Of a stretch of 64,000 nucleotides of DNA, positions 43,943 through 63,493 are shown piece by piece (within the stretch, counting starts at the first letter, position 1; every line of letters starts with the position of its first letter). The notes under the pieces were generated by a model that was given only the letters and a program-made list of their open reading frames with translations, made no database searches and was not told the DNA's origin. The stretch is from Vibrio sp. SCSIO 43137 (lineage in GTDB: Bacteria > Pseudomonadota > Gammaproteobacteria > Enterobacterales > Vibrionaceae): assembly GCF_028201475.1 (NCBI RefSeq), contig NZ_CP116384.1, positions 62,001-126,000 of the forward strand. Direction: 5' to 3'. The position numbers were made by a program, and so were the translations under genes.

Positions 43943-43990
43943 GAATTATTGGGGACACACACCTCAAGAAAAGGCAAGTTTTAATAACAT

Positions 43991-44015
43991 AGGCACCGCA
44001 AACACTACGGTGCCT
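43991..44015. terminator. Terminator-like hairpin downstream of the small minus-strand gene
   Basis: AGGCACCG and CGGTGCCT flank a 9-nt loop. On the plus strand it is followed by TTCCTTT. It lies just beyond the stop of the small minus-strand gene at 44028 and may serve both directions. Confidence 0.6.
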
Positions 44016-44027
44016 TTCCTTTATCCG

Positions 44028-44186: not shown

Positions 44187-44239
44187 GATTAGTTCCTTGT
44201 AAACAACGTAATTGTCATCACCAAGGTCGCCAAACAGAG

Positions 44240-44435: not shown

Positions 44436-44451
44436 GTAAGCATATGTTTTA

Positions 44452-47400: not shown

Positions 47401-49026
47401 GTTGCTGAAACCATGGGACATGAAGCGGCTCACGTACGAATCGATCAAGGGCAAACAAGGTATCGTGAAGGGGCTCTGGCAGAAGAGTACGCAGATACCT
47501 TTGGTGAGTATTCATCGGATGGTATGGAGTTCTCCGCGGGTAGTTATACCAATGTACAGCTGAATGTACCTAAGGCTGATAGCGGTAAGCTGATTGGTAA
47601 TACTCAGTTAGTTAATAATACCACCAAGATGTATCAAGATATTAATCGTGATGCACAGGGTGACGGGGTGGTTAATTATCGCCAGCTAGACACTCCTGAA
47701 ATACAAGCTATACGAAAGCATGCTCCTCAGATGGCTAAGGAGCTCGGTATATCGACAGAAGAAGCCGAGAAAAGAATGGCTGAAGAGCTAGTCACGCGTG
47801 TTGATAGTGATTGGCAGGAGTATTACAAATCTAAGGGGCGCAAGGCAGATGGTGAAGCACTCAACCATTTGTCAGAGGCCTTAAGCTCATTAGGTGCAAA
47901 CTACGTACAACCAGACTTAATACCCGACCCTGAAGCCATTTATACCCCTGATGGTGTAAAAGCTGATCTTGTTAATTATAAAGATAACTATGAGCATCGA
48001 TACAATGACGCCACCTTGTATGGTGAGGGTCTGGTAACAGGAGATAAAGAGCAACAAGACTTTTATATTAACAACCTTGGTGAACATAAATCAGATCTCG
48101 GAGAAACAGCATCGGGCACGGTTGCTGGTGTAGCTAAACCAATTCTAGATGTCGTTGATGTGCTGGAGTGGGGAATAAAAAATCCCGAAGAAGGAATAAA
48201 ACTGCCTTCATATGGCTATCAAGAGATACTGAATAATCCTGAGGAAGTTGTAGAGGGTATATATGAGGGCTACGTAGATAGCCAAGTAAACTCTGTTTTG
48301 TCTTCTTTACAAGGGGATAACTATAACGCTGCGAAATCTGGAACTGCTGGAACGGTGCAGTTAGGACTTGATGTTGGTGTCGGTACTGTATTGGTTAAGG
48401 GAACTAAGGGTGTATCTCTTCCGGATGGGGGGAGGTTACCAGACAAATTAAATAGTGTGGACGGAAAACATGATAAAAAGGGTACATCTACAATCTATGT
48501 AGACTCTCATGGACTTGCTATTGAAGCACAAGAGGGATCTGTGTTTAGGGCTAATGCAGTAACACCTGAAATAGACAAATCAATTTCTGAAAATGGTTTT
48601 TCAACAGGTAAGTCCAGAGGAGTAACTCAAGAGGTAGGAGCAGCCTTACCAGAGAGTTCCCCATTAGAAGATAGAGTTGTTCAATACGTTGAAGGAAGTC
48701 CATTTCCTAGAGATACAGACTTCGTCGGTGTTAAAGAAATCCCTCATGACGCTCTAAACACAGCAATTCGCACAGGCAGACAGACTTTGAAAGAAGATAA
48801 TGCAGTTATAAGAATTGATGAGTTAAATATTAATGATATGAATCCTATTAATGTTGATAAAATTTATAGTGAGACTTTAAATAGACAGCCTCGTAGTCCT
48901 ATTGATGTTGCAGGGGAGTCGGTTGTTGAAGGAGACATTCCAGCAGATAAAATAGTTAATACGACTCGTTTATCTAAAGAGGAAGTTGATAAGATTAAGA
49001 AAAATAGAAAGAAAAAGGGACAATAA
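44452..49026 (+). CDS. Orphan 5'-truncated CdiA fragment with a second, different C-terminal toxin
   Basis: 1524 codons from a TTG with no ribosome site. The first 26 codons are unrelated filler, and homology to the full-length cdiA begins abruptly at 44530 in FHA-2. It has no signal peptide, TPS domain or translocator partner of its own, so it is probably not secreted as it stands. It reproduces FHA-2 and the pretoxin entry (TVDHRLL, ~46980). From about 47036 it diverges, with an intact zincin motif HEAAH at residues ~990-994 followed by ALAEEYADTFG. The last ~170 residues (VFRANAVTPEIDKSISENGF) are a different toxin candidate, vaguely ADP-ribosyltransferase-like. Most likely a silent toxin cassette. 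Confidence 0.75.
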   Translation: MSFCVNNWCVVCELSESISLFYFLLNDISLVGSELKADGEATLTADGDILLTAQQYREYARKETIKKGFGGLSGRQKGSVKDATLLDSGYLITSGNTTLNSGKDIGIVASEVVSDGEVNLTAVDDVLINAGEVLKLSQQWDKKTRFLSGGNLFEMESKREGEQSSTAQASAVRSQGNLTVDAGSVSVVGSELDAQGSINLSADTGSVDIAAAKESRQSYYDHEKLTIGLGDTSKLVSVKDGKLKITLGKATYDKVDEKTQTGTHKGSQLNATENIAVNAESDISVTGSALAADTDGNNSGDITLTAKDNIRITEAKNTESTQRKEVHGKAEASFVVQHQGVEVAKAIKALEESTQRLKQAKEDYSRYKKQVDSLEHTLATLEQQYRDKEPGVNFEDVEELRDLVSDVKGDESWYQAGIVLATEDVVSKTTLAYQQGRALSESTSSFAMGFNAGLELDLSASKSENQSQSTHSLASSLTGENITIDAGNNKGDKVDVQGSQLKANDRVSIDAGEVNLLASTDTSNSQGSNESVNGTISMTLFGATGGANVNLGYSKGRNNSNTTTHTNSTVTGNSIDIRSDNDTNIKGANVAATDVLTMNVGGDLNIESVSDRENSSSKSMGVNGGISLSAADSDASVKTYEGVTHSYTGEGAGDVTGVNAGTHTSSDRKRSKQTVLTSVTSGNTADITVADNTDIKGALVATVDGEGKDQGNLNLATETLTYANLTNTDYNQSRNFAVNSGVSINSKGEGEASGQATAAQPKNDTAKDQSLIDSTYTSSSLKYKNTSGYSKSKTLATVGKGNLTIGDTDKSDDLTALNRDTEHTEKDLFTVDRKQGDIDVTVDHRLLIEDGRKAIAEDVERTKRLGQAVGDVATKESITITDTLDHIGDVQKDLDVQKNLALSDGGKSVDILENKENYSVKEYDQALDQYAKAYASVYGVTIESAKAVATEKFRGMTYSNSADGNATNSRVSIDYNNNGGATDVAETMGHEAAHVRIDQGQTRYREGALAEEYADTFGEYSSDGMEFSAGSYTNVQLNVPKADSGKLIGNTQLVNNTTKMYQDINRDAQGDGVVNYRQLDTPEIQAIRKHAPQMAKELGISTEEAEKRMAEELVTRVDSDWQEYYKSKGRKADGEALNHLSEALSSLGANYVQPDLIPDPEAIYTPDGVKADLVNYKDNYEHRYNDATLYGEGLVTGDKEQQDFYINNLGEHKSDLGETASGTVAGVAKPILDVVDVLEWGIKNPEEGIKLPSYGYQEILNNPEEVVEGIYEGYVDSQVNSVLSSLQGDNYNAAKSGTAGTVQLGLDVGVGTVLVKGTKGVSLPDGGRLPDKLNSVDGKHDKKGTSTIYVDSHGLAIEAQEGSVFRANAVTPEIDKSISENGFSTGKSRGVTQEVGAALPESSPLEDRVVQYVEGSPFPRDTDFVGVKEIPHDALNTAIRTGRQTLKEDNAVIRIDELNINDMNPINVDKIYSETLNRQPRSPIDVAGESVVEGDIPADKIVNTTRLSKEEVDKIKKNRKKKGQ
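44530..45445 (+). repeat. Long direct repeat, copy 2 (start of orphan cdiA)
   Basis: This segment matches 39498-40413 without indels. The left edge is sharp: upstream sequence shares nothing with cdiA, so 44530 is a recombination or deletion junction. Recombination between the copies would remove 5032 bp and attach the second toxin to the full-length secretion protein. Confidence 0.9.
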
Positions 49027-49028
49027 GA

Positions 49029-49274
49029 ATGCTTGATGGTTGGAGTATAGTTGAAAATCAATATGAGTTCACAATCCATCGTACATACCCGGATGGTACT
49101 GATGTGATCATTTCAATTAAAAGCACCAATAATGGTTATGAGGTGTGGTCGAGTGCAGAACACAGATCGTCAGGTCCTAATAATCACTTAGATGGTACTG
49201 CAGAAACTCTTGAGTCTGCGGAGCAAATGCTCTGGTTGGAAGCTGAGGGTTGGGATGATGATTTTCTAAGCTAA
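49029..49274 (+). CDS. Putative immunity protein of the orphan toxin module
   Basis: 81 residues, starting 2 bp after the orphan cdiA stop. It is acidic, ending LEAEGWDDDFLS, with beta-rich segments (YEFTIHRTYPDGTDVIISIK). It is unlike the first immunity candidate, as expected if the two toxins differ. Its position directly after the toxin coding region is the main evidence. An AAAGGGA sequence precedes the ATG. Confidence 0.65.
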   Translation: MLDGWSIVENQYEFTIHRTYPDGTDVIISIKSTNNGYEVWSSAEHRSSGPNNHLDGTAETLESAEQMLWLEAEGWDDDFLS

Positions 49275-49287
49275 ATTGTATTGATTC

Positions 49288-49410
49288 AGACGCCACTCAT
49301 CCGAGTGGCGTCCCTTCCCACAATCACCCAATCCACCCACGGAACCCTCTCTCGCCACCAGAAACAGCATATTCCAACGGTATCAGCCACGGGAATATAT
49401 TGTTAAACCC
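49288..49410 (+). repeat. Module-end direct repeat, copy B
   Basis: 123 bp closely matching 43819-43942. Its leading hairpin is perfect (GACGCCACTC/GAGTGGCGTC), whereas copy A has one G-T wobble. The 229 bp after it, to 49639, contain no convincing gene or structure. Confidence 0.9.
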
Positions 49411-49639
49411 TGCGGTATTAGGGCTGTAATCTGGGCACTTTGGTTCGGAGTGAGAATCGGTTTATTCGTCAAGGTATGAATCACACAGGATAGATATGAG
49501 AGCAGTTCGGTACGAAGGAAACCTGCTTCTAGTGGGTATAAGCTAGGAGAATTCAGGGATTTTCCCAGCTCTTTTTTTGCCGAAAAGCGAGTTCCGCAAA
49601 TCATAGTGCGCGATATAAAATCTGAGCTCACTGAGCATA

Positions 49640-50197
49640 CTATGTATTTGCTTGTTCCGGCAAAGTGACTACCCATACCGCATGTTTATCCTTCAACGTC
49701 GTTTCTGCACTGTTAATCATTGCTCTAAGAAAGGCAAAGCGACGATTACCTTCAAGTAAGTGAAAAGGCTCTAGCATTGGTCCTTCATGCTCTGGATAAC
49801 GAAACTCCAATATCGGATGATTTTGGTCAGAGGCGTTTTGAGCAACAATAATAGGGACGGGGGTTGTACCGTGTTCAAGCATGAAATCACAAAAAGCCGG
49901 CGCGTTATTGCGTCCTGATCTCAACCACCACTCTCCTTTTTCTAGCAGCCGCTTCTCGTCGTAAGGATAATGCTTGATGATTTCAATCTCACCGTTAGAC
50001 AAATCAACCAACTGAAAGTCCCACTGCGATAGGTTTGGAATGAGATTAAGGGCATCAATGACATCTCCATCTCCTTTTCCATGTTCATAAACCCATTGTT
50101 TTAGGACATCTTCCGGGAAGTTACGTAGTTCTTCAGGCATCAATTCGCAAAATTCTTCAAAGCTTGTGTCATGTCCAATCTTTGGAAACTTAATCAT
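49640..50197 (-). CDS. ParB/sulfiredoxin-like domain protein, partner of the SMC-HEPN ATPase
   Basis: 185 residues with AGGGGGGAGAG before the ATG. The C-terminal half has PFHLLEGNRRFAFLRAMI, resembling the ParB/Srx nucleotide-binding motif (usually DGxHR or GExR followed by a helix), then HAVWVVTLPEQ. The N-terminal ~100 residues are acidic and of unknown fold. It lies 113 bp downstream of the large ATPase gene on the same strand with nothing between, so the two probably form one operon. ParB-like domains occur in several defence systems as nucleotide-using modules; no named system is recognised. Confidence 0.6.
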   Translation of the reverse strand: MIKFPKIGHDTSFEEFCELMPEELRNFPEDVLKQWVYEHGKGDGDVIDALNLIPNLSQWDFQLVDLSNGEIEIIKHYPYDEKRLLEKGEWWLRSGRNNAPAFCDFMLEHGTTPVPIIVAQNASDQNHPILEFRYPEHEGPMLEPFHLLEGNRRFAFLRAMINSAETTLKDKHAVWVVTLPEQANT

Positions 50198-50310
50198 TAC
50201 TCTCCCCCCTTATCGTCAGATAAGCGTATATATCCGCACAACTTGTGTCGAAGATTACTTATATAATCTTCTTACCAGCATTAAAGAATCGAAGGTCCAA
50301 CTAGCATTGC

Positions 50311-52929
50311 TCAGCTTAAAGCCTGATCTAAGCTAGTCAGAGCTGCAATAATCGCATTGACGGTTCCTCTATCAAACTCAGAACGATCATTTTCTTCATG
50401 TGTCCCTTTATTCAGGTATCGCCACTCTCGGCTGCCACCATTGATACCCAACAACACATTAATTGGGTCGTACACAGCACTTTTATCTATATCTTGAAAA
50501 TCAGGTTTATTGATTTTACTTCTTAGCTGATCAGTTAAATTCCTAAGTTCAATGGGAGCTGACGAAGACCGTAGCTTAATGCTTAAATTTCCGTCACCAT
50601 GTCGATTTACGTATTTCCACACTTTGCCCTTTGTAAGAGCTTCTAATGCTTGTCTAGCCTTTGATAAAGCTTCCCGTACTTCATTTCGCTCTATATGGTT
50701 GGCAGCAGCCAAAATGTAATTTCTGGGTGCACAGTTAAAGTCAACGCGGATATGCTGTTCACCCAATCTAGGCAAAAAACTTAGCAGCCTAGACTCACGA
50801 ACTTCACCTGCTGGCAGCAGATTTTGAATATCCTTAAAGAACTCTTCTCCGTGGCAGGTAAGGATAATTTGCTTTTCGCTAAAGTAACCATCTTCAAATA
50901 AGGAACGACGGATTGACTCGCGGTGATCATCATCAATTGCATTTACAGGGTCATCAAATATCAAAATAGGAGCTTGTTCCTTAAGGTTTTTTGCAAGCAA
51001 TATAGCTAGACCAAGGCAACGGACATGCCCTTCACTTAATATATGAAGTGCGTCGAAGAACTTGTCGGGTTGATCTTTAAAGGATATTTTCAGACGCTGG
51101 TGTTGTGCTAGCGGAAGCTGAACACTTGCCAATAGTTCAGTTTGCACATCATTTCGATTAAAGGCGTTGTACAGTTCGACTACTTGTTCACCTAGATCAG
51201 CGACCAGTTTAGCTGGTAATCCATTGTTATAGCCGTTTATTTTCTGAACAAACATTGCATATGCAGTAACAATTTCCTTGTTCTTGGCAACGGCTGCTTT
51301 TTCAGCTTCAACGTCCGCGATCAACTGTGCGTTATCAGTTTGGAAATTGTTGATTAGCATTCTTGCTTTAGCTAGGTTATTCAGTGCCGTCTTCTTCTGG
51401 GTACTTAAAACTGTAACTTGGCGGTCTATTTCACGTAATCGGTTTAACTCTGACAGTTTGCTTTCCCTTAGTCCTAGCGCCTTATCAACTTGTTTGTCCA
51501 TTGCTTCTAGTTGTTCAACTTGGCCAACTAAATGCTGCCAACCACTACAGTTGTCAGGTAATTGGCTCAATAAAGAGTCCCACCATAGCAAACTTGGTTG
51601 ACCATTGGTTATTTGTAGAAACTGCAATGGGTTATTCTGAGGGAAGAATCGCAAACAAGTATTTAATGTTTGTGAGATATTGAAAAGCCCCTGCAAAGCT
51701 TGTTGCTCAAGCAGAGCTACATTTTGTTGTAACTCAGCTAGCTGATGCAACTTATTCAACTCTTGTCCTGCATACATATATGGATTAACTACCACCTGTT
51801 GTAGAGGAGTTTTGCATGCAGGGCATACATCAGGGCTACTCGGCTGAAGTTGCGTCACAGCCTCATACAGTTGCTTAAATGACACTTGTTGACCTGCTTC
51901 TGTAAGCTGTTTTTGCTTTTGTCTAAGCTCATTGATCGTTGCAGCTGTTTCGTTCCCTACTGTAACTAAGTTAGCTTTTACAAGATTTGCTTTTAACGGC
52001 GGAGCCTGTTGCAACTCTGCGTCTAGTTGCCTTATGAGCCCTAGTGTTTGAGTGTTACCGTTAAGTTCGACTATCAACTGATCATAAGTTGCACCAACTC
52101 TATAGTTGTTGGCTAAATTTATCTCTTCACTGGCAATCCGTTGTAGCTCAGTATTGTTTAATTGGATCTGTTGTTCGGCGCCTTGTAATCCCTGTTGTTT
52201 CTGCAACAGTTGGATAGCCTGCTTGCCCTGCACGTCGATATATTGATTACCAATGTCTGAGGTGAAGCTACGGACAAACTCCGTAAATTTTTCTAGGCCA
52301 AATAGTGTTGCAATAAGCTCGGTTTGTTTCGCGGGTGCTTGTGCGGCGATACGGGAAAAATTATCAATACGGTTCTTTTCTACAAAACAGAATCGATATA
52401 CAGACTCATTTGACTCGATTCGTACATCATTTCCTTCGTAATCTAGTGCGACAACTTCAGGATGGGTTAAAGCATTAACAAACGCATTTTTTAAATATTC
52501 GTTTTGTTCACGAAAACGCTTACTTTCAGCTTCGGCCACATTACCTAACAGTGAATATTCCAGTGCTTCACAAAAGCTTGATTTGCCAGTTCCGTTAGGA
52601 CCATATATCAGGACGAGGCGACTATTGAGGTCAAACACTTCTTGCCTTGAAAACCCTCTAAAAGGACCAACCGTCATGGTTCTCAAAGAAGAAATTTGAG
52701 CAGTCTGTTCACCGTTATTGAGTGAAATAGCAGGGACTTGTGTAGGAGTTCCATCCCAATGAGCATGGCACAGCTGAACTATTTTCCTTATGCGTTGCCC
52801 TTGGTGCGTGCCCAGCGGGATTACTTCATCTAAATGAGCTGAAACTATATTAGCTATCTTACGTACCGAATCCGAAGTACCGGAGTCCTGTAGAGTTTGA
52901 AGAAATCGTAAATATTCAGCCCTTATCAC
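50311..52929 (-). CDS. SMC/Rad50-like ATPase with zinc hook and C-terminal HEPN-like domain
   Basis: 872 residues from a GTG start with GGAG 7 nt upstream. ABC/SMC features are Walker A GPNGTGKSS (110-118), signature LSEGH (631-635), Walker B ILIFDDPVNAID (655-666) and H-loop His693. Long coiled coils hold a zinc hook, CPAC at 369-372. The last ~140 residues are helical and contain R837-x6-H844 (RYLNKGTH), which fits the RX4-6H active site of HEPN RNases, preceded by ARQALEALTKGKVWKYVN. Such ATPase-nuclease fusions are typical of antiphage systems. I recognise no named one; RloC also has a Rad50-like body but a different nuclease end. Confidence 0.8.
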   Translation of the reverse strand: MIRAEYLRFLQTLQDSGTSDSVRKIANIVSAHLDEVIPLGTHQGQRIRKIVQLCHAHWDGTPTQVPAISLNNGEQTAQISSLRTMTVGPFRGFSRQEVFDLNSRLVLIYGPNGTGKSSFCEALEYSLLGNVAEAESKRFREQNEYLKNAFVNALTHPEVVALDYEGNDVRIESNESVYRFCFVEKNRIDNFSRIAAQAPAKQTELIATLFGLEKFTEFVRSFTSDIGNQYIDVQGKQAIQLLQKQQGLQGAEQQIQLNNTELQRIASEEINLANNYRVGATYDQLIVELNGNTQTLGLIRQLDAELQQAPPLKANLVKANLVTVGNETAATINELRQKQKQLTEAGQQVSFKQLYEAVTQLQPSSPDVCPACKTPLQQVVVNPYMYAGQELNKLHQLAELQQNVALLEQQALQGLFNISQTLNTCLRFFPQNNPLQFLQITNGQPSLLWWDSLLSQLPDNCSGWQHLVGQVEQLEAMDKQVDKALGLRESKLSELNRLREIDRQVTVLSTQKKTALNNLAKARMLINNFQTDNAQLIADVEAEKAAVAKNKEIVTAYAMFVQKINGYNNGLPAKLVADLGEQVVELYNAFNRNDVQTELLASVQLPLAQHQRLKISFKDQPDKFFDALHILSEGHVRCLGLAILLAKNLKEQAPILIFDDPVNAIDDDHRESIRRSLFEDGYFSEKQIILTCHGEEFFKDIQNLLPAGEVRESRLLSFLPRLGEQHIRVDFNCAPRNYILAAANHIERNEVREALSKARQALEALTKGKVWKYVNRHGDGNLSIKLRSSSAPIELRNLTDQLRSKINKPDFQDIDKSAVYDPINVLLGINGGSREWRYLNKGTHEENDRSEFDRGTVNAIIAALTSLDQALS

Positions 52930-53598
52930 TATGTTTCTCCTTTCAAATTATCTTAATCATTGGCTTGACCACCTGACTATCGAACGATTCAGCTTAGCTT
53001 GCCATTATTCCCAGAGACCTGTAGCTTAACGACTACTGATCAGCTATTTTTTTATAGCTATACTGAGTGTAATCAAATAGCTAACCCACTTTAGAGCATT
53101 TAACTTTGTTAGATTATGGTTTGTGTCACATGTTTCATAATGAGTTGGGAGAAGTTGAGCTAGATATGCAAGTTAATATTTCAAACGCAGAAATCTCTAC
53201 CGTGAGTTTCGGGAAATAAGCAGAATTAAAGCATGCGAAGTCACTTAATGACCGCGCTAATTAGACTTATAGCAGTAGTCCTAAATTGTTTTGTCCCAAA
53301 TTAGTTTAAAGATCCAAAGACATCACGTAGATATACAAACATCTAACGAAGCAACTTCTGTTGAATGGAGCAGAGAAAAAATGTCCAGATTTAGAATAGA
53401 AACAGATGTTTAGGTGGATTGCATTAGGCTGAGGTAATGTGTTTTCTCGATTTCGTACCTAGCCTGATAACAGTATCTTTAATCAGCAATCGCTCCACTA
53501 CATTGCCATTATCAGTAAATGAGTTAACTTGTTTAATAGTTAAAAATCAGCAAGTTAACTCAGTCTTTGAAAACTAAGCCGCTTTCGGTTTTCGTTTG
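52930..53598. other. Gene-free gap with a perfect 11-bp inverted repeat
   Basis: 669 bp with no convincing coding region. GAGTTAACTTG (53521-53531) and CAAGTTAACTC (53551-53561) form a perfect inverted repeat with a 19-nt spacer, just past the end of the polymerase gene. A short hairpin around GAAAAC/GTTTTC (about 53570-53592) may end the polymerase transcript. No tRNA or obvious att core was found, so the left end of the mobile element stays unplaced. Confidence 0.6.
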
Positions 53599-56457
53599 CT
53601 AGTCCAGCAGCAATTTCTTTGCCTCTTCCAGTTCAGAGGGGTGGAATATAAGCGCCATATCAACATCAGGGTGATGCTCTACCAGCCAGGCCAGTAGTGG
53701 GATGATTTGTTGAGTAACAGGCAATAGCTGTTCATACACTTTGCGTGTTTTCGCTCTGGCGTTAGCGCAGTCTTTCTTGGTGGTCTCAAAGCCAGCTTCT
53801 GTTAACTGCTCTGCCAGATCCTCATAGAAGCCTTTAGGGATTCTGGCGGGGTGCTCAGGCAGTCCCCACTTGCCTTGTGTAATGGCTCGTAGCATCTGTA
53901 AGCGAAAAAGCTCCAGCGAGCCGCCCTTGGTGTATTTTAGTCCGGTGCCCTTGGTAAACTTCTTAACCTTGTAAAAGTCCATCCAGCTATACCAGTCGTG
54001 CAGGGTTTTCAGGCAGTGGTTCTCCCGCCATTCATCAAAGTAGGTGCGGGCAAACAGGCCATCTTCTACCGTAGGCCAAGGAAGGGTATCAAAGGCCAGA
54101 TGTTCAACGGTTTCCCCCGTTTCAGGATGACGCACTTTCACCATTCTTGGGTTGATCGGGCAGCGTTTAAAATCAAACTCGAGATTAAGTCGCTTGTTTC
54201 TTGAAATAGAAATCAGATCTAAATGGTCCCTCCACATATCACGCGGTGAGGCTAAATGGCTCTCTTCAAGGCGCTGGCCCGGATATCGGTCCAGAAAGGT
54301 CTTCACCATCCAGCTGTTTTCATCCACGCCTTTAGGAGCCTTCTTTCCGGCTTTAGCGCATACAGGTTTGGTCGTTCCGGGCTCTGCCGTTAACTGGCCC
54401 CGGGTTTTCATGGCAATCAACTGGCGAACATGATGTTTGAGCTTGATCATCTCACCGTCACCCACTTCACGGCATATCTGCAAAAAGCGCTGGCAGTTAG
54501 CACCACTTAGATCCAGTTCATGCTGAGGGCAGTCAGTAAGGTAGCCATCTGTGGTGGCGCTGATAATGGAATAGCCCTTTCGAGCGGTCGACATTATCAG
54601 CTCATAAAGACAGGCTCTGACAAAACCGGTCACATGGCTGGCCAGTTGTGCGTTGGTGATGGGGGAATAGGGGATTTTCTTACTCAGTCCGGTATTGGAG
54701 TCAAAAACGTTGCGTTCGACAAGCCCCTGAGCTGCTTTGCCATAGACACTGTTTCCGAGGGTTTTAATCAGCTGGCTGTACAGCTCATTGCCTTGGCTTT
54801 CATACTTAGCACGCTGGTCCCGGATAATTGCAGTAAAAGTCTTAAACAGAGGTTCAGAGCCTTTCACCCATGGAATAACCGTTCCGAACTGGATATCTAT
54901 TTTGCATCCCATATTATGCGCCACGGCAATTTCAGGTGCGGTCAGATACGCCTGTCCTGAACGGGGGTAATAGATGCCCCTCATGTCTGTTCTGCAAGGA
55001 ATGCAGGGATAAGGTTCGTCTTTATCAAAGCAGAATCGGACATAGGCAAAGCCCATGGTATGGCCCAGATAATCCTCAACACGGGTAGAGCTGAATGCGT
55101 TCTGATAATCTGGAAAAAGTACGTCAACCAGCGCACTGGTATACGCGCCACTAAGGTCATAATCGTAGTAGTCGCCTATCTCAGTCGGGCCGTAATGACT
55201 GCCGAAGTTGGCACCGCCCATAAAGCTTGAAATCGCCAGTTGATTGGTAAATTCACGAGCGGGAGTAAGACAGGTATCAGTGCGGGTATTGATAGTGCCT
55301 GTCTTCGGATTAAAGTACTGAGTTTTACGCGTCTCCAGACCCAGAAAGGCGTTCATTCGTTGGGTACTGCCACAGGTCGCCTTAAGCAGAGAGACCGCCA
55401 TATTGCCCAGTGTTGCAGGCAGACGTTTTACGCCCAGTTCAATGCCATCCGGTAAGTCCTGATTCATCTCTTTTAAGGCGAAGGATTCAAGCTGCAATCC
55501 GTACGACAAGGCTATATCCGAATCTCTCAGAGCATAACGGTTGAAAGTGGCAATATCTTCACAATAAAGGTCGCTCATACGCTCAATCATACCCGGTGGC
55601 AGAGTCTCTTTTTCATAGCCTAGCATGGCACCCAGTGCATCCAGACTGGCCTTGTTCGGGGCTAACAGGCAGGTGTCTCTGAAGACCAGTTTAGTTTCGA
55701 ATGCGTTATTGGACTTATCGAAGAAGCGAGTGTTTTCCAGCTTGTACCGGCCCTGTCCGGTAGTATCAATCTTCAGGCCATAGTCGGCACCAACAGAGCA
55801 GACGGTGTTCTGAACCACCTCCAGAGAATTTTTGTGGTTCTTATTGCTCTTGCCAATGTTCCAGAACTCGTTAAAAGATGCGATGTCGGCTCTCATAAAA
55901 TGGGCGAATACGGTGGTGTATTCCGGCCAGTTATCAAACAGTCCACGGCTTTTGCCTTCAATCAGTATGTCACGGATAAAGTCCTCAAAAGAGAGCTTAT
56001 AGCCCTTGTCACTAAGTTCTTTTCTCTGTCGCATTTCCTCTTCTTTGGATAAGCCATTATCCCGGCAGTGTTTGATTAACTTCGCCATGTCGGTATGGAT
56101 AACGCCATTAAATCGCTTGCCATCCACATCGATACTGTAGGAGTAGCAAAGAATGTCATTACCATTTTGCTCGGGGTTATATTCCCATTCCGAGTCCATG
56201 GCAATGCTGCAATGCTGGCCTTTGCCTCTTCGGGCCAGCCAGGGGGCTAAGGTGCGGGTGTCCATAAACTCAGCCAGTTCGTTATCTACTAACTGAACGT
56301 CTTTAACCGGGTTATGCATTAACGCCTGAAAATCGGCAATGACTTCATCTCTGCTATGGACAGAGTCAGGGCAGTACGTCTCAACAAGCGCTTCTCTGAT
56401 TTCATTATCGCTGTATTTGTTGAGCTGGAATTGGGTGGTTATATCACTACGTTGCAT
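53599..56457 (-). CDS. Family B DNA polymerase, probable primer-independent piPolB of a pipolin
   Basis: 952 residues from the ATG at 56457 (AAAGG before it; a longer frame starts without a ribosome site). The proofreading exonuclease motifs are ExoI DSEW (88), ExoII HFMRADIASF (D191) and ExoIII YALRD (308-312). Polymerase motifs are A YDLSGAY (433-439), B KTLGNSVYG (565-573) and C TTDGY (635-639). Motif C lacks the usual DTDS wording, as in piPolB and other divergent protein-primed-like enzymes. No terminal-protein gene is next to it, which favours piPolB over a tectivirus-type enzyme. Two small genes upstream on the same strand complete the unit. Confidence 0.82.
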   Translation of the reverse strand: MQRSDITTQFQLNKYSDNEIREALVETYCPDSVHSRDEVIADFQALMHNPVKDVQLVDNELAEFMDTRTLAPWLARRGKGQHCSIAMDSEWEYNPEQNGNDILCYSYSIDVDGKRFNGVIHTDMAKLIKHCRDNGLSKEEEMRQRKELSDKGYKLSFEDFIRDILIEGKSRGLFDNWPEYTTVFAHFMRADIASFNEFWNIGKSNKNHKNSLEVVQNTVCSVGADYGLKIDTTGQGRYKLENTRFFDKSNNAFETKLVFRDTCLLAPNKASLDALGAMLGYEKETLPPGMIERMSDLYCEDIATFNRYALRDSDIALSYGLQLESFALKEMNQDLPDGIELGVKRLPATLGNMAVSLLKATCGSTQRMNAFLGLETRKTQYFNPKTGTINTRTDTCLTPAREFTNQLAISSFMGGANFGSHYGPTEIGDYYDYDLSGAYTSALVDVLFPDYQNAFSSTRVEDYLGHTMGFAYVRFCFDKDEPYPCIPCRTDMRGIYYPRSGQAYLTAPEIAVAHNMGCKIDIQFGTVIPWVKGSEPLFKTFTAIIRDQRAKYESQGNELYSQLIKTLGNSVYGKAAQGLVERNVFDSNTGLSKKIPYSPITNAQLASHVTGFVRACLYELIMSTARKGYSIISATTDGYLTDCPQHELDLSGANCQRFLQICREVGDGEMIKLKHHVRQLIAMKTRGQLTAEPGTTKPVCAKAGKKAPKGVDENSWMVKTFLDRYPGQRLEESHLASPRDMWRDHLDLISISRNKRLNLEFDFKRCPINPRMVKVRHPETGETVEHLAFDTLPWPTVEDGLFARTYFDEWRENHCLKTLHDWYSWMDFYKVKKFTKGTGLKYTKGGSLELFRLQMLRAITQGKWGLPEHPARIPKGFYEDLAEQLTEAGFETTKKDCANARAKTRKVYEQLLPVTQQIIPLLAWLVEHHPDVDMALIFHPSELEEAKKLLLD

Positions 56458-56628
56458 CGTATTTACCTTTACGGTTAGGAGTAAACATAACAATGCACGC
56501 CAATTTCAGACGTGCATTGTCTCGGGAGTACAGGCTACGAATGACGGTTAATAATGAAGGGCAATATATGGGTAAAGATGAGAGCTAAGAAAGACAGGCA
56601 ATAATAGAGCGCACGCAGGCAAAAGGAG

Positions 56629-56931
56629 TTATTTTAAAGTGAATACCACCTCGATATGGTAAACCTTACGAAAAGCCAGAATCACTTTATTAAAGGCTTC
56701 GGTCCAGCCAAAGTTAGTTTTCTTGCTGCCATCCGGTTTCTTAGCGCTGCGCATGGCTTTAGCGAAGTAGTTTTGTAGATAAGCCGCGTTATCCAGTGGG
56801 CCAAACTCCTCGACGTATTTTTCAATATTCTGCTCTAGAGCCAGCATAAAGGCGTTCGCGCCCTTGGTTCTTAGCAGGCTAAAGTCCTTCTCAATATTGC
56901 CAGTCAGGGTGTTCATTTCATTGGTGTTCAT
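56629..56931 (-). CDS. Small pipolin-associated protein of unknown function
   Basis: 100 residues from the ATG at 56931, 4 nt after the stop of the upstream gene and with GGAGG overlapping that stop; a longer frame lacks support. The sequence is helical (DFSLLRTKGANAFMLALEQN, AYLQNYFAKAMRSAKKPDG) and ends in a hydrophobic strand (YHIEVVFTLK). No family recognised. It lies between the 159-residue protein gene and the polymerase gene, so it may help replication. Confidence 0.7.
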   Translation of the reverse strand: MNTNEMNTLTGNIEKDFSLLRTKGANAFMLALEQNIEKYVEEFGPLDNAAYLQNYFAKAMRSAKKPDGSKKTNFGWTEAFNKVILAFRKVYHIEVVFTLK

Positions 56932-56935
56932 CGTA

Positions 56936-57415
56936 TTACGCCTCCATAGCGTTTTGGTTGGTGAGTAGAGTGCCCCAGTCAGGACGGTGTCTTTTGGTTT
57001 TGGGTAAAGGCTCCAGCGCCTGCGCCAGTTCATCGGCTATCAACTGATGCAGAGCGATATCCTCTACTTTCAGAAAGTCGATGATATGGTTATCCAGTCC
57101 CCGGATAATCAGGCCACAGAACTGCTCTCCGGTATGTTGCTCAATAGCCACAACCGATTCACGCCTTACATAGTTATTGTTCGGTAGCTGTATCATCGGG
57201 TTCTTACTGCTTTCAGCATGAGCCACGATAGATTCGATATACTCCTGAGCCTGCTCCTCGGTGATCTCTTTCTTACCTCCTAAGGTGAAATAATCAGTGA
57301 CGCGATTATGTTTGTCTTTAAACACATATTTGCCTCCAGCCTGATGCGCTGAAGAGATATTTTCCGGGCTTCGGTAGTCTCCCGAGCAGGACTTTAATAA
57401 ACCTTTGTTGGACAT
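56936..57415 (-). CDS. Pipolin-associated protein of unknown function
   Basis: 159 residues with GGAGCGAATAAA before its ATG. It is charged, with KYVFKDKHNRVTDYFTLGGK, a RRESVVAIEQHTGEQF segment and a LPKTKRHRPDWGTLL tail. No family recognised. It is the first gene of the minus-strand polymerase unit and is followed after 4 nt by the 100-residue gene. Confidence 0.65.
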   Translation of the reverse strand: MSNKGLLKSCSGDYRSPENISSAHQAGGKYVFKDKHNRVTDYFTLGGKKEITEEQAQEYIESIVAHAESSKNPMIQLPNNNYVRRESVVAIEQHTGEQFCGLIIRGLDNHIIDFLKVEDIALHQLIADELAQALEPLPKTKRHRPDWGTLLTNQNAMEA

Positions 57416-58345
57416 TTTATTCGCTCCATTTTCGTGAATGTCTTCTTAAAACATATATCAACACTCAAGGAGTTACAATCGTCTGACTTGTAGAAAATAC
57501 CAACTAATACAATGCATTAAATATGATGAAAGTATAAATAAGGTGATTTTATAAACACTCTGAGCCACAAACTAAAATGGGGAACTACCTTCCTCAAGGC
57601 GCAAAAAAATGCCGGTCGTTTTCTCCCTTAAATAAGGCGCGAAACATGTGTCTAAATATTCATCAAATGGTGGAGTTATGAACAATGAAAATCTGGAAAA
57701 ATAATTGAAATTTTCTATAAAAAATTACTCAACTTTGCGTTAGTAATGGTGGATTGCTTGATATTTAGGCAGGTTTGCAACTGTAGAAAGTGGCAGATAT
57801 CGGCTGTAATGAGGCTACATATCGGAATGATGCTGATAGACCCCGCTCTTTATCCAAAAAGAAACGATGCAGATTATGGTCTTCGTATACGTGATTGCTC
57901 AGAAACCCTTTAAAGCAGTAGGATACGGAGAAAACTCAAACTCAGTCTATGGCAATATCATTGCCGCCGATTAGCTTTCGATGGCAGCCATAGTTTCGAG
58001 ACTTAATCATCAGTACATCATCATAGATTGAAACTCAGCAACACTACTGTATTGCCATAATCAGGGTTTGAGTTTGTTGCTGGAAGACAGAACAGGTAAG
58101 GCGTGAGGGCTAGCTGAAGGAACGAGTCCTTGTATCATATGTCTGTTGGAAATCTGCTGTGATTTCCTTTTCTGTCTTTCTATAGTTGCTAAGTTAACTC
58201 AAATTACGTAATGTTTATAATATTCAAGTGCTTATCATGTTTTTTGTCATTATCGCTTTCAGTGGCTGTTGGAAAGATTCGAGAGTGATATGCGGACTAA
58301 AACTATATAGAAAGCGTTATGTTACAAGAAATTAAGTGAGGCAAC
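57416..58345. other. 930-bp gene-free control region of the pipolin
   Basis: AT-rich, between the divergent polymerase unit and HNH gene. It holds GGCAAT-ATC-ATTGCC (about 57952-57966). It also holds a composite inverted repeat around 58030-58080, where AAACTCAGCAAC is matched by GAGTTT and GTTGCTG. TATTGCCATAATCAG (about 58050) resembles ATTGCCATTATCAG near 53503, so a shared protein site is possible. No ORF of credible coding quality was seen. Confidence 0.55.
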
Positions 58346-59143
58346 ATGAGTGAAGGAAGAGATAATTTTTCTGAGGGTACGAAACGGATTTTGGCTGACC
58401 GAGCAGGTTGGCGCTGCTCGTTTCCCTATTGTGGGCAGTTTACGCTAGGTCCCTCTAACACAGATCCTGAGAAAAAAATTAATAACGGAATAGCTGCACA
58501 TATTTGTGCTGCTGCCGAAAATGGGCCTAGATATGATCCAAATATGACGCCAGAACAAAGAAAAAGTTTAGATAACGGAATTTGGATGTGCAGGAATCAT
58601 GGTAATTTGATTGATGCTGATTTTTCTACTTATACTGTTGAACAACTGAAAGAGTGGAAAGTTCAAGCTGAGAATTTTGCTTATGCTATGCTCGCAAATC
58701 CAAGTGCAGTTGCGCCTTCCATAAGCTCATATTCAGAGCAAGATCGTCGAGTTTTTGATTTTCTTAATAATATCTTACCTTATGATGTAATTCAGAAAAT
58801 TAATGATGAGCCATTTGGTAGGTATGTTCCTGATTGCGTCATTAAGCCATTCAATGACCTGATATATTATGAGAATGATCCAGTTTACCATTTTAATAAT
58901 GCCGAGCTTGAAGGTCTAAGAGCTCAACTTCTTCAGCAAGCATGGAAGTTCATACGACACTTTTCACAACAATCAGCTGGTGCTATTGGTGGGTATGATT
59001 ATATTAATATTCCAGAGTTTCGTCGCTATAACCCTGATATTCCTGAATCGTATTGGATAAAGTACTCAGACGACACTAGCAAGCTTGCAAGAGAGTTCTG
59101 CTCTACGGCGATGAAGCTACGAGATATGCAAAGAAATTTGTGA
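58346..59143 (+). CDS. HNH nuclease with Cap5-type HNH domain and a different C-terminus
   Basis: 265 residues with GAGGCAAC before the ATG. Residues ~8-110 match the HNH region of the CBASS effector Cap5: the C24xxxxC29 pair, GIAAHICAAAENGPRYDPNM with His52, then NGIWMCRNHGNLIDAD with Asn77 and His85. Cap5 follows this with a SAVED sensor of cyclic nucleotides. Here residues ~120-265 do not show SAVED features and are not recognised (VFDFLNNILPYDVIQKI, FRRYNPDIPESYWIKY). No CD-NTase gene is nearby. A stand-alone nuclease with its own trigger is likely, probably defensive cargo of the mobile element. Confidence 0.75.
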   Translation: MSEGRDNFSEGTKRILADRAGWRCSFPYCGQFTLGPSNTDPEKKINNGIAAHICAAAENGPRYDPNMTPEQRKSLDNGIWMCRNHGNLIDADFSTYTVEQLKEWKVQAENFAYAMLANPSAVAPSISSYSEQDRRVFDFLNNILPYDVIQKINDEPFGRYVPDCVIKPFNDLIYYENDPVYHFNNAELEGLRAQLLQQAWKFIRHFSQQSAGAIGGYDYINIPEFRRYNPDIPESYWIKYSDDTSKLAREFCSTAMKLRDMQRNL

Positions 59144-59226
59144 CATACAAATCATTTAGAGTGATTCCCAACGCTTGGCATTCTTAGTTCAAGGTTGGGG
59201 GTGGAGTTTTGATATAGGAGCTACAT

Positions 59227-59667
59227 TTGAATTCGAAATATACGAAGGGCTATAAGTTCTTATTTTCACATTTAGAGTATGAAATACAAGCGATAGGAAG
59301 TCTTTCAGGAAAGGAACTTATAAAAGTCAATGGAGAGGCTTTATCTGAGAAGTTTCGTTATACTTTAAACTCGACGCATGAGTTTCAAATAGGGGAGGAT
59401 GCTTTTAAAGTTGACTTCAAAATGATCAGTTTAATGAGAGGAGTTGTTGCTTGTAGGTTAAGCATCGATGGGCAAGTTATCAAAATTCTTCAAGCTGATC
59501 CTCAAATTTCACACAAGAAACTGATGGCTTTTTATGTCGCGCAGGTGGTAGGAAGTATATTTCTTTCTCCGCAGGTGTCCGCGGTAGTGATCTATAACCT
59601 TATGATGATCATGCTCTACCGCAAACTATTCTTTAGAAAAATGCAGATTCGAGAGCTTAAAACCTAA
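59227..59667 (+). CDS. Small membrane-associated protein after the HNH gene
   Basis: 146 residues from a TTG start supported by GGAG 6 nt upstream. The N-terminal ~95 residues are soluble beta (HLEYEIQAIGSLSGKELIKV, DGQVIKILQADPQ). Two hydrophobic segments follow near residues 100-135 (LMAFYVAQVVGSIFLSPQVS, AVVIYNLMMIMLYRKLFF). No family recognised. It lies 83 bp after the HNH gene on the same strand; a membrane partner to a nuclease is possible but unproven. Confidence 0.55.
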   Translation: MNSKYTKGYKFLFSHLEYEIQAIGSLSGKELIKVNGEALSEKFRYTLNSTHEFQIGEDAFKVDFKMISLMRGVVACRLSIDGQVIKILQADPQISHKKLMAFYVAQVVGSIFLSPQVSAVVIYNLMMIMLYRKLFFRKMQIRELKT

Positions 59668-59808
59668 CATAGTGTTTAAGTGTGATTGCATGCGCACGCC
59701 GGCTTGTTACATTCACATCTGGTCATTGAATAGCAATGCATACCCTATTTTCTACGTAGCCGTGTCTATTTAGCTCAATTCTGGGAGTTCCTGTGCACAG
59801 ATAACAGC

Positions 59809-59843
59809 AAAAAAAGAAAGCAGAGGGAGATTTTTCCTCTGCT
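59809..59843 (-). terminator. Intrinsic terminator of the small glycine-rich gene
   Basis: AGCAGAGG (59819-59826) and CCTCTGCT (59836-59843). On the minus strand the stem is followed by TTCTTTTTTT. Confidence 0.8.
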
Positions 59844-59857
59844 CGATTCAGTCATTT

Positions 59858-60052
59858 CTAATCGTCCAACACCTCATCAATCAGTATACCAGCGGCAAAG
59901 CCCACGATTGTGCCTGCAAGTAACCCGTAAGGCCCTCCAAAGCGTAGTCCAATGGCCCCGCCCAGTTGAGCTGCTCTAAAACCCGTCTCTTTTCTGTCCT
60001 TGGGTAGTGAGGGAGATTCAGGGTAGAAGTGATTTTGCTTATTCTTTCCCAT
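59858..60052 (-). CDS. Small glycine-rich, membrane-active-looking protein
   Basis: 64 residues with AAGGAAATAACC before the ATG. A basic N-terminus (KNKQNHFYPESPSLPKDRK) is followed by a glycine-zipper-like hydrophobic stretch (AAQLGGAIGLRFGGPYGLLA, then GTIVGFAAGILID). Gene families of this kind include small holin- or toxin-like proteins, but none is recognised here. Its own terminator follows. Confidence 0.55.
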   Translation of the reverse strand: MGKNKQNHFYPESPSLPKDRKETGFRAAQLGGAIGLRFGGPYGLLAGTIVGFAAGILIDEVLDD

Positions 60053-60078
60053 GGTTATTTCCTTGTTTTCCAGATATG

Positions 60079-60109
60079 AAAAAGGGCAGTACCATTACTG
60101 GAACTGCCC
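60079..60109 (-). terminator. Intrinsic terminator of the small secreted-protein gene
   Basis: GGGCAGT and ACTGCCC with an inner CCA/TGG; on the minus strand a T run follows. It ends the transcript from 60486. Confidence 0.8.
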
Positions 60110-60210
60110 TGTATAGGTGTTGCATGAACCATTGGCTTTACTTGATTAGAAGAGTCCCCACTAAAATAACCCAGTTCAGCCCTATCAGTACATGCAACAA
60201 GCTTTATGAT

Positions 60211-60486
60211 TTATTGAGACATCTTTGGTGAGTCTGCTGGACACTTTGTTTCATCACTGACCTGACCATTTAAGGTTCCGCACACATCGGCTTTCCAGTG
60301 AGCAATGATCCCTGCTATCGGAGTAGATTGTTCACCTGCTTTGCCGTTCCAGTGTTGCTCTAGTTGTTCTTTGGTCAGCGATGGAGAACCACCACGACCA
60401 CCTGAACCCCCGCCATACGCCATAACCTGAAGTGACATTGTTGAAATAGTGATTACTGCTAGAAGTTGTACTGCTGTTTTTCTCAT
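60211..60486 (-). CDS. Small secreted protein of unknown function
   Basis: 91 residues from the ATG at 60486 (AAGGTAATAACA before it). A signal peptide (RKTAVQLLAVITISTMSLQVMA) is followed by a glycine-rich linker (YGGGSGGRGG) and a short domain with two cysteines (KADVCGTLNG, DETKCPAD), which could form a disulfide. No family recognised. Confidence 0.6.
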   Translation of the reverse strand: MRKTAVQLLAVITISTMSLQVMAYGGGSGGRGGSPSLTKEQLEQHWNGKAGEQSTPIAGIIAHWKADVCGTLNGQVSDETKCPADSPKMSQ

Positions 60487-60726
60487 TGTTATTACCTTAT
60501 TGATTGAAGTAAGCACACCTGCTGCGGGTATGGCTTACTAGGTTGAATAGTATTGAAGATGGAGTGGACAGGTGCTGTCCGTGATAGTGAAAAAGTTGAA
60601 TAAATGGTGAAAGCCCTTGTTGGTCTTACCCTATGAAACCTATGGCAAATCTGAGTGCGTGACGGATTAAGGCGTTTAAAAATGGTATTCCCTTAACCTG
60701 TCCATCAAGACCGTTACGCTATTGCC

Positions 60727-61587
60727 ATGAGTGATAAGAGTGCAAAGTTAGCTTTAAGACTTGGAGATATCCTGACCCGTTTGTTTATGGGTGAAGTGCT
60801 GCGTCCTGAGTCTTTGATTGATGAGTATCTGGTAAGTGAAAAGACCCTTCGTCGTGACTTTAATGAAAGGTTGATAAACGCTCCGATTATCCGCAGTGAT
60901 GAAGGTTACAAGTTAGATCCAGCACTTCGAGCCAATGGTAATGGGAACATAAACAAGGTGCTGAACGACATCGGCTTAACGTCCTTGCTCCCTGTTAGCT
61001 ACTTATCCAATGCTCAGTCTGTTGTTCTGTTTAAGAATCCACGCTCCGAGTCTCCAGAGCAATTTGATACTCTGTTTAAGCAGTTGATTGATGTCATTAC
61101 CAGCCATTCGGTCATCGACCTTATCCATGATGGAAAATGTTTCGAGCAGGTGCATCCGTACCGAATCGTAAATGATGGAGGTATTTGGTATCTTGCTTCG
61201 GTTCACTCAGGACAGCTTTATTCGTATCGATTGGCTAAGATTTCACAGATTCACCGACGTGAGGATAAATATAAACCCAGTCGAAAGGTTCACGAGGAGA
61301 TCTACAGGCAAGGCATGGAATGGCTAACTGCGGATAATGCTGATGTGCTTGTGCAGGTTGATAGGGAGATTGCACCGCACTTTCTTGATGCCACTGTTCT
61401 GCCTAACCAGCAGCTATTGAAAGAGCTGAGTGATGGTAGCTTGCTGATTTCCAGTCGGGTATCCAAGTTAAGTGAGATTGTGCCCGTACTAAAATGCTGG
61501 ATGCCGAGATTAGAGGTTTTGTCCCCTGTCAGTTTACGACTTGAGTTGATTAGAGAATTGTACGCCTCGCTGGAACGTTGCCAGTAG
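60727..61587 (+). CDS. WYL-domain transcriptional regulator
   Basis: 286 residues. The N-terminal HTH (LALRLGDILTRLFMGEVL, VSEKTLRRDFNERL) resembles DeoR/YafY-type regulators. The C-terminal part has the WYL-like segment HPYRIVNDGGIWYLASVHSG followed by LYSYRLAKISQIHR. WYL proteins sense nucleic acids or nucleotides and often control defence systems and mobile elements. It lies inside the pipolin-like region, and the control of neighbouring genes is inferred. No clear Shine-Dalgarno sequence. Confidence 0.8.
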   Translation: MSDKSAKLALRLGDILTRLFMGEVLRPESLIDEYLVSEKTLRRDFNERLINAPIIRSDEGYKLDPALRANGNGNINKVLNDIGLTSLLPVSYLSNAQSVVLFKNPRSESPEQFDTLFKQLIDVITSHSVIDLIHDGKCFEQVHPYRIVNDGGIWYLASVHSGQLYSYRLAKISQIHRREDKYKPSRKVHEEIYRQGMEWLTADNADVLVQVDREIAPHFLDATVLPNQQLLKELSDGSLLISSRVSKLSEIVPVLKCWMPRLEVLSPVSLRLELIRELYASLERCQ

Positions 61588-61895
61588 AATCCCGCTTCCG
61601 TTTTATCTTATTTATGCTTCCTTCTGGAAGCCATATACCACTCTGACGTTTAACCGTTGCATACTGTTGCCCCTGTGAAGCGTTTCCCCTACTGCTTTGC
61701 TTGTTGTTTCTACTATGAACTGAGATTTGCTTACTCTATGGCGGGTATTGAAAATGGCAGTTTGGGTGAAACTGAAAACCCTTATCGGGTATCGGAAGGT
61801 TGAAAATAGCCCCAGTTTTTACCGCGTGGACACTAACTAATAAATAACTCCGACAGGAGGCCGGATTTAAATAAGATATTGAGTAGAGGTTTCCC
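61588..61895. other. Gene-free gap after the WYL gene
   Basis: GCTTCC-TTCT-GGAAGC (61616-61631) is a short hairpin that may end the WYL transcript. A minus-strand frame at 61736-61930 lacks a ribosome site and overlaps the small gene starting at 61896, so it is not called. Nothing else is visible. Confidence 0.5.
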
Positions 61896-62027
61896 ATGAA
61901 AAACATCACCCTGACAGACTGGTTTAGCATGATGAGTCAGTCGCCTTATCTCTCTTTGGTTGAGTTGATGAATTATGTTGCCTGTACCGTGTTCGGTACT
62001 GTTGTCTCATTGTCGCTATGGCAATGA
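61896..62027 (+). CDS. Possible 43-residue small membrane protein
   Basis: ATG at 61896 with AGAGG 6 nt upstream. The C-terminal half is hydrophobic (LVELMNYVACTVFGTVVSLS). It is too short for many gene finders. It overlaps the next frame, which suggests a coupled pair or a frameshifted single gene. No homology is claimed. Confidence 0.4.
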   Translation: MKNITLTDWFSMMSQSPYLSLVELMNYVACTVFGTVVSLSLWQ

Positions 62028-62163
62028 GGCTGCCATTTCTCTGCGGGTCTTAAATCTTTGGATTTTTGTTGGTGTGGTTATGATTTTCCTTACCGTGTAT
62101 CGCTCTCAATTTGAAATGGTGAGTTTGCCGTTATCCCGTAACGGTTCATGGCTAACTGACTAA
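61975..62163 (+). CDS. Possible small membrane protein overlapping the preceding gene
   Basis: 62 codons from a TTG at 61975, in another frame from the 43-residue gene. One membrane segment (VLNLWIFVGVVMIFLTVY) is visible. With no ribosome site of its own it would need coupling, or a frameshift could join it to the preceding gene. Confidence 0.25.
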   Translation: MLPVPCSVLLSHCRYGNEAAISLRVLNLWIFVGVVMIFLTVYRSQFEMVSLPLSRNGSWLTD

Positions 62164-62301
62164 AAATCGAGTCCGATTGCTAAACATAGAATTAAGTGCG
62201 CTCTTGGCGCTGAATTAGAAGTTATTCCCTGATGATGGATGTTCCTGATTGCAGAGAAACCTCTACGTCTATTACTTCTCTCCAGACTCTGTCATCGGAA
62301 C

Positions 62302-62333
62302 CCCCCTATTGCTAACAACATGGCAATAGGGGG
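62302..62333. terminator. Strong 11-bp hairpin
   Basis: CCCCCTATTGC (62302-62312) and GCAATAGGGGG (62323-62333) form a perfect GC-capped stem, followed after a few bases by a T-rich stretch on the plus strand. It is the only clear element in the 62164-62552 gap. Confidence 0.65.
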
Positions 62334-62552
62334 ATTTACTCGCTTTTTCTTTCCATCAGATTGCCAGATTTTTTAAATCCGCGGTTGTTTGCTTACCGAT
62401 TAACGTCAAAACACCCCATTAAGCCAGTCACCACTTGGGTTTGTGTTTTGGGGTAATGAGCAATTTAAATCTTGAAATCGACGCTACGGTCTTCTGACGG
62501 TCTTTTGGAGAAAGCTTTGTGTAATGGACAGGCGCTTGAGGGAGGGGGTTAT

Positions 62553-63005
62553 TTACTTCTTGGTGGAGGGCTTTGCCATTGCCAGTAGTGCTTTCTTCTT
62601 GGCGGCATAGTCAGGGCTGACCTGATGAAGGAAGATGGAAGCATCCGATTTTACGATTAAACCTAAGTCTCGCGTAACACTGGAAAAGAAGGATACATTG
62701 TTGCTGCTGCCGCTTTTAAACAATGGCCTGAATACCGCACTTTTAAAGGCGTTGTCTTTCTGCGTTTCGATTAAGGTTAAGACGGAATCAATCGGTATCC
62801 ACTCTTTAGAGAACAGCCCTGAATCGGTTTGCTCTACGAGGTGAATATAAAGCTGCTTCTCTTGTTGGTGGAGAGCCACTTCATACTTGATTTTCCCTGT
62901 GGCCTTAGGGCTGAGTTTGTCAGCTTCTGCGCTATGGACAATCTGCTGGAATGGGTTCAGCTCTTTGGTATCTGTGTTCTTTTTCGCATTGGTTTTAGCG
63001 TTCAT
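62553..63005 (-). CDS. Hypothetical pipolin-region protein
   Basis: 150 residues with AGGAG 7 nt before the ATG. A basic N-terminus (MNAKTNAKKNTDTKE) leads to a beta-rich middle (KYEVALHQQEKQLYIHLVEQ) and a late SSVTRDLGLIVKSDASIFLH segment. The C-terminus is basic and ends STKK. No family recognised; a DNA- or RNA-binding accessory protein is possible. Confidence 0.6.
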   Translation of the reverse strand: MNAKTNAKKNTDTKELNPFQQIVHSAEADKLSPKATGKIKYEVALHQQEKQLYIHLVEQTDSGLFSKEWIPIDSVLTLIETQKDNAFKSAVFRPLFKSGSSNNVSFFSSVTRDLGLIVKSDASIFLHQVSPDYAAKKKALLAMAKPSTKK

Positions 63006-63104
63006 GATGATACTCCTGTGGTGATAGTGATGAAAATATGGGATTAGGGTGAGTGTCTTGGGTAACTCTGGTTAGTAGTGTGGGCTGAAACTAAATGAAT
63101 TGAG

Positions 63105-63479
63105 CTAGGCGGTGACCTGAGAAAGCAGTGTCTTAACCGCACTTGTCTCGCTATCGGTGTGTCCGACCAGATAGCAGCCTGAACCATGGTCATTGAGAAT
63201 CGCCAGCCCTATAACGAAAGGCTCTAAAATAAGGACGTATTCGGGGTAGCTTATGACGTACTCAATCAGGGAAAGTGACTCTCCATCTATAAGAGAGAGC
63301 TCATGGTCGGTATCACCCTCATCGATAAGAATCAGAGTAATGCCTACTTTCTCCCAGTTTTTCTTAAGCTCATTGGTTTTGCCTTGAAAGCTTTCGGCTA
63401 AATGAGTGATGAGGCTGTCTTTATGCGTTATGGGTAAATCAAGCTCTATAAGCTCGGTATAGCTTTTAATTATTTGCAT
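63105..63479 (-). CDS. Hypothetical acidic protein upstream of the small basic gene
   Basis: 124 residues with GGAAACCCACC before the ATG. Acidic, with LTLILIDEGDTDHELSLIDG and EPFVIGLAILNDHGSGCYL. No family recognised. It lies 14 bp downstream of the integrase gene on the same strand, so it is probably co-transcribed with it. Confidence 0.6.
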   Translation of the reverse strand: MQIIKSYTELIELDLPITHKDSLITHLAESFQGKTNELKKNWEKVGITLILIDEGDTDHELSLIDGESLSLIEYVISYPEYVLILEPFVIGLAILNDHGSGCYLVGHTDSETSAVKTLLSQVTA

Positions 63480-63493
63480 GGTGGGTTTCCAGA

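Follow-up and report, generated by a model that had tools for sequence, protein, structure and literature searches.

Pipolins are genetic elements whose defining feature is the gene for piPolB, a family B DNA polymerase. According to PMC9710591, att-like (attachment-site) terminal direct repeats, often at a tRNA gene, are usual in these elements but not required, and a pipolin without att repeats is allowed; the same paper names Staphylococcus epidermidis as a carrier of plasmid pipolins. PMC7385651 describes the pipolins of Escherichia coli, whose piPolB possesses an intrinsic priming capacity, and PMC7544198 gives a motif C lacking its first aspartate as a piPolB feature. The stretch considered here is a window of 64,000 nucleotides from Vibrio sp. 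SCSIO 43137 (bases 62001–126000 of the second contig, NZ_CP116384.1, which has 1,563,780 bases; the genome comprises 4.94 Mb in two contigs), and it carries a chromosomal pipolin. This is a new example of an already known element type and by itself ordinary; what is worth pursuing is p159, a conserved companion of piPolB encoded upstream of the polymerase gene (polB). The explanation that fits the whole best, and which we hold to be likely, is a pipolin moved by a tyrosine recombinase and copied by piPolB, with p159 as partner. The features that carry this account are the following (window positions):

53599–56457, minus strand: piPolB-type family B DNA polymerase, 952 aa (open reading frame, Pfam, alignment, tree).
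56458–56628, minus strand: non-coding segment between p100 and polB, with imperfect direct repeats and then a long hairpin at 56489–56521 (folds, profile).
56629–56931, minus strand: p100, small protein of 100 aa from its likely ATG (PHROG 21259, E 2.4e-7, function unknown).
56936–57415, minus strand: p159, conserved piPolB companion with a LytTR-like predicted fold (profile searches, structure prediction).

The polymerase frame extends over 53599–56493 if a TTG start is assumed; this TTG is probably unused, and the ATG at 56457 yields the 952-aa form found in the protein database. The protein matches Pfam DNA_pol_B_2 at 39.4 bits (cut-off 25.8). In an alignment with 16 of the 42 further proteins retrieved, D88/E90, H186/D191, Y308/D312, D432/D434/Y439, K565/Y572/G573, and T635-T636-D637-G638 proved invariant in all 17 sequences; we take these residues to represent ExoI–III and motifs A–C. 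The exonuclease motifs are thus kept, as an earlier sequence-only reading of this DNA had stated, and the divergent motif C that it pointed out (TTDGY in the window polymerase) appears as TTDG in 17/17, the first aspartate missing as in piPolBs. A KTRG stretch after motif C is another mark ascribed to piPolBs.

Phylogeny, which the same reading had named as a check, places the enzyme accordingly. The tree held 38 chosen rows: the window polymerase, 28 candidate piPolBs, seven protein-primed phage polymerases, and two RNA-primed enzymes. The window polymerase groups with enzymes of Vibrio, Photobacterium, and Ferrimonas (100/100) within a 29-row pi clade (100/100) that also takes in the S. epidermidis plasmid enzyme and those of E. 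coli, and the reading of the locus as a pipolin with a piPolB-type polymerase is borne out. The seven protein-primed rows form a separate clade (99/95), and the pi group recurred in 100% of bootstrap trees, the protein-primed group in 98%. Several rows sit on long branches, as do the two outgroup rows where they join, and the root is therefore unsure.

A polymerase that is instead protein-primed, with a divergent terminal protein encoded beside polB (p159, for instance), is very improbable. The idea draws on phi29, PRD1, and Cp-1, which share with this locus a family B polymerase and a small gene upstream; in those systems the terminal-protein gene lies directly upstream of the polymerase, and p159 is likewise upstream of polB. 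The tree, however, contradicts a grouping with protein-primed enzymes; the single-domain relatives of p159 have just 77–114 aa, its predicted fold is rich in beta structure and comes closest to LytTR, and the E. coli piPolB has been credited with priming of its own. Family searches recognised no terminal-protein gene at the locus, in agreement with the sequence-only reading, though such genes diverge beyond what these searches detect; because they are so poorly conserved, the tree is the stronger evidence. Clustering with protein-primed phage enzymes and a terminal-protein gene close by were the two outcomes that the sequence-only reading had named as refuting it; both were sought, and neither appeared. 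By analogy with its family, the window polymerase would be expected to synthesise DNA without a primer.

Relatives of the polymerase are widespread. A pattern-based scan of species genomes returned 71 polymerase loci, with identities of 81% in Photobacterium galatheae, 55% in Vibrio, Ferrimonas, and Photobacterium, 36% in E. coli, and 24–28% in Lachnospiraceae and Gordonia, and tblastn matched 41 plasmid records, including S. epidermidis pSE-12228-03. Phage records searched with the protein and E. coli genomes searched by DNA gave no match. One relative among the best 120 of 2073 matches (P0136) is named 'Primer-independent DNA polymerase PolB'. Among the relatives, polB is interrupted in the P. 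galatheae assembly (L036, 7750–10597), and near 2929000 of G287:C1 both polB (many stops) and its partner gene contain stop codons. On one contig (L050 and L052, JAQTWB010000006.1), the polymerase is encoded at two places, with the same partner gene before it at both; genomes G213 and G079 each encode two pipolin polymerases that fall in different clades, and upstream of each polymerase is a separate form of the partner gene.

The partner gene in the window is p159. Its C-terminal ~70 residues were made into a profile and run against 14,470 translated segments from the 71 loci and the window, some loci being near-duplicates; all 21 matches at E ≤0.005 fell in segments flagged as upstream of polB, which number only 174 of the 14,470, and the next eight, weaker matches did likewise. 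The family is two-domain in Vibrionaceae and single-domain in beta- and some alpha-proteobacterial loci, many of which have a P-D-W motif near the end. A second Vibrionaceae form, found beside more distant polymerases, is also a member of this family (138 columns, 95.1%, E 3.2e-8). Across a sample of 296 Vibrionaceae genomes, 20 of which carry polB, the first form occurs in 10 and the second in 10; their union of 18 consists entirely of polB carriers, so that the family is present in 18/20 polB genomes and 0/276 others (Fisher 6.8e-27, the related genomes not being independent). The two polB genomes without a match are G028, which has the single-domain form in its locus, and G214, whose polB is present only as a 103-residue fragment. 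Nineteen of 20 copies lie upstream of polB, and that of G224 lies ~1.4 kb downstream. A database search with the first form returned 76 proteins, the named ones being hypothetical proteins of Vibrio and Photobacterium.

Pfam and NCBIfam gave nothing above cut-off for p159. Its predicted structure is beta-rich and nearest to LytTR, the six best VIA rows being LytTR domains of transcription regulators such as ComE and AgrA. The LytTR sequence profile is not among its Pfam matches at E up to 10; the protein is therefore called LytTR-like rather than a LytTR member, and it differs further from AgrA and ComE in having no receiver domain and in accompanying a polymerase. Binding of p159 to DNA is somewhat better than an even prospect. 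In the literature searched, no title or abstract concerned a conserved neighbour of the piPolB gene; that coverage does not extend to the 2017 discovery paper (PMC5695915). The upstream genes of other pipolins were also compared with p159. The E. coli-type gene, whose frame overlaps polB and whose predicted structure has a predicted local distance difference test (pLDDT) score of 47.1, reached 52% in a first comparison and 7.6% in a deeper one, and homology is not claimed; the Aeromonas-type gene reached 0.7%.

Between p159 and the polymerase lies p100, the likely start of which is the ATG at 56931 and not 57033, so that p100 begins 4 nt past the p159 stop. Both of the small upstream genes proposed from sequence are real (p159 at 56936–57415, p100 from 56931). 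The non-coding segment that follows is 171 bp in the window and 167–223 bp in nine relatives, and the part ahead of the hairpin is 57–73% pyrimidine. A direct repeat is present in this part in 7/10 species (equalled by at most 4 of 100 shuffles), five of the seven being near relatives, and the segments of L037, L038, and L039 show no direct repeat of this kind. A hairpin formed in 8/8 sequences folded (z −2.5 to −4.8), with stem sequences that differ, and a profile built from ten segments matched one place per element of the clade, in the interval separating p100 from polB, with no match elsewhere in ~1.7 Mb of DNA, duplicates included. Possible roles of the segment are those of attenuator, operator, or origin. 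Rfam models gave nothing in 49000–64000 at E up to 1.

These observations suggest how the parts may act together. The tyrosine recombinase, perhaps with the small proteins p124 and p150 encoded beside it, would move the element in and out, excision being inferred, and piPolB would copy it without a ready-made primer. The two-repeat, LytTR-like p159, encoded in an operon with piPolB, would most likely bind element DNA, either marking the start site of piPolB or controlling the operon, and its natural candidate target would be the repeat and hairpin segment just before polB. Whether p159 and the segment serve as origin rather than in regulation is, in our estimate, about even. The fuller proposal of a two-part initiation module, in which the LytTR-like protein binds the segment and gives piPolB, an enzyme able to begin on many templates, a defined start, so that the pipolin would be a replicon equipped with both an initiator and an origin of its own, is tentative and, taken whole, rather unlikely. 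The window's own copy of the segment scored only E 0.13 to 0.49 in leave-out models: a model built without the window and its sister L036 gave E 3.7e-4 for L036 and E 0.13 for the window copy, which it located correctly, and the window's share in the repeats is for this reason weakly supported. The hairpin rests on single folds, since an RNAalifold consensus of the whole segment kept just 5 pairs. A plausible competitor, if short of an even chance, is that p159 does no more than regulate transcription in the element and plays no role in replication, and that the hairpin attenuates transcription. The best structural matches of p159 are indeed domains of known transcription regulators, the window hairpin is terminator-like (13 pairs), and a T run follows it in L034 and its kin; against this, the p159 gene is kept beside polB while other element genes vary, which a general regulator need not be.

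The remaining genes of the element are as follows:

49640–50197, minus strand: 185-aa protein beside the ATPase, probable cargo (family searches without match).
50311–52929, minus strand: SMC/SbcC-like ATPase, probable cargo (nearest PADLOC model LmuB).
58346–59143, plus strand: HNH-type protein, candidate defence cargo (PADLOC PDC-M68A, 91.7 bits; Pfam HNH_2 below cut-off only).
60727–61587, plus strand: WYL/WCX-domain regulator (family match).
62553–63005, minus strand: p150, integrase-linked, function unknown (relatives in 29/72 loci).
63105–63479, minus strand: p124, integrase-linked, function unknown (relatives in 23/72 loci).
63494–64000, minus strand: tyrosine recombinase, C-terminal part, cut by the window end (Phage_integrase, 84.5 bits).

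The full recombinase frame runs from 63494 to ~64732, counted into the next stretch, and encodes 412 aa; the tyrosine recombinase expected of an integrated pipolin is thus present, as is the WYL gene, both having been noted in the sequence-only reading. That reading had left the element as chromosomal or plasmid: it lies on the second replicon of 1.56 Mb, and the plasmid alternative falls away. The gene for the 185-aa protein shows 84% DNA identity, limited to the gene, to a genome of the genus Vibrio (G214:C1:453885–454451), as mobile cargo might.

Gene content was surveyed by tblastn with 17 genes of the region against 85 loci (the 71 from the scan and 14 further genome stretches). The nearest relatives are the Vibrionaceae and Ferrimonas elements L034–L039, which share the non-coding segment and, in 6/6, the order int–p124–p150–p159–polB; two of the six have the WYL gene, which is also found in other loci, including E. 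coli types. Three of these relatives end in direct repeats overlapping tRNA-Trp (77 bp in L036, 118 bp in L037, and 49 bp in L039), whereas the window element is at no tRNA. A tRNA-Trp also lies on the integrase side in L035, L038, G136, G264, and G138, and a tRNA-Leu in G278 and G224. The E. coli pipolins, as described in PMC7385651, resemble the window element in having a piPolB (36% identical), a tyrosine recombinase, relatives of p150, p124, and WYL, and varied cargo; the window element differs in that its replicon has no uracil-DNA glycosylase (UDG) gene, neither an att nor a tRNA-Leu site was found, no second recombinase turned up next to polB in the window, and polB is preceded by a different gene. 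Many other pipolin loci (L040–L043, L046, L047, L061–L064, L073, L074, L078, and L079) have another tyrosine recombinase and, between it and the slot of the partner gene, a small helix-turn-helix gene that is excisionase-like by eye; neither is seen in the window element. Plasmid pSE-12228-03 shares the polymerase clade, its polymerase being 26% identical over about half, but is an 8-kb plasmid with a relaxase and a resolvase-type recombinase and no tyrosine integrase annotated.

The element's ends were sought in several ways. Two contact-dependent growth inhibition (CDI) modules with CdiA tails flank the pipolin on the second chromosome and have repeats in common: on the left, an open reading frame with CdiA-like repeats ends at 49026; on the right, beyond the window end, a 513-aa frame has a CdiA_C domain. 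A repeat 3′ of the modules (49288 to ~49495 versus 68556 to ~68766 in extended coordinates) suggests a left edge near 49.5 kb, which is not fixed. With their presumed immunity genes and a repeated downstream sequence of ~140–200 bp, such modules occur at three places (43819–49495 of the window and 2619–4752 of L004), and the pipolin sits between the second and the third. To the right of the element, an apparent insertion-sequence transposase gene is present in two copies (1457 bp, 99.9% identical; L004 6128–7318 and 18147–19310).

The sequence-only reading had proposed a search for att repeats and UDG, and neither turned up. Exact repeats of at least 13 bp between 63.9–66.7 kb and 40–63.9 kb (extended coordinates) comprised only CDI-tail repeats (15–32 bp) and scattered 13–14 bp matches, with no recognisable att; when the left junction was aligned to the right flank with gaps allowed, the best match reached 64% over 76 columns (E 0.09). 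No tRNA gene was found in the 104 kb examined around the element, no tRNA-Trp remnant stood out across the window and the 40 kb that follow it, and a search of 227 genomes of the genus with DNA of both flanks revealed no recognisable empty site. UDG, frequent in E. coli pipolins and non-defining, was not found on this replicon, both PF03167 matches of the genome being on the other contig. A stranded or decayed pipolin that has lost its mobility would account for a missing tRNA and att repeat where relatives use tRNA-Trp, and related genome G287 has a polB full of stops; yet here the frames of polB, p159, p100, WYL, p150, p124, and the integrase are all open, and we regard such decay as unlikely.

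PMC9710591 describes the role of piPolB in biology as unclear so far, save for a putative part in damage tolerance. The p159 family, with its distribution among polB genomes, offers a concrete handle on that role, since the protein is open to expression, DNA-binding assays, and deletion. If p159 marks a start site, pipolins would be replicons whose initiator is known; should it regulate polB, it would show how the enzyme is kept in check.
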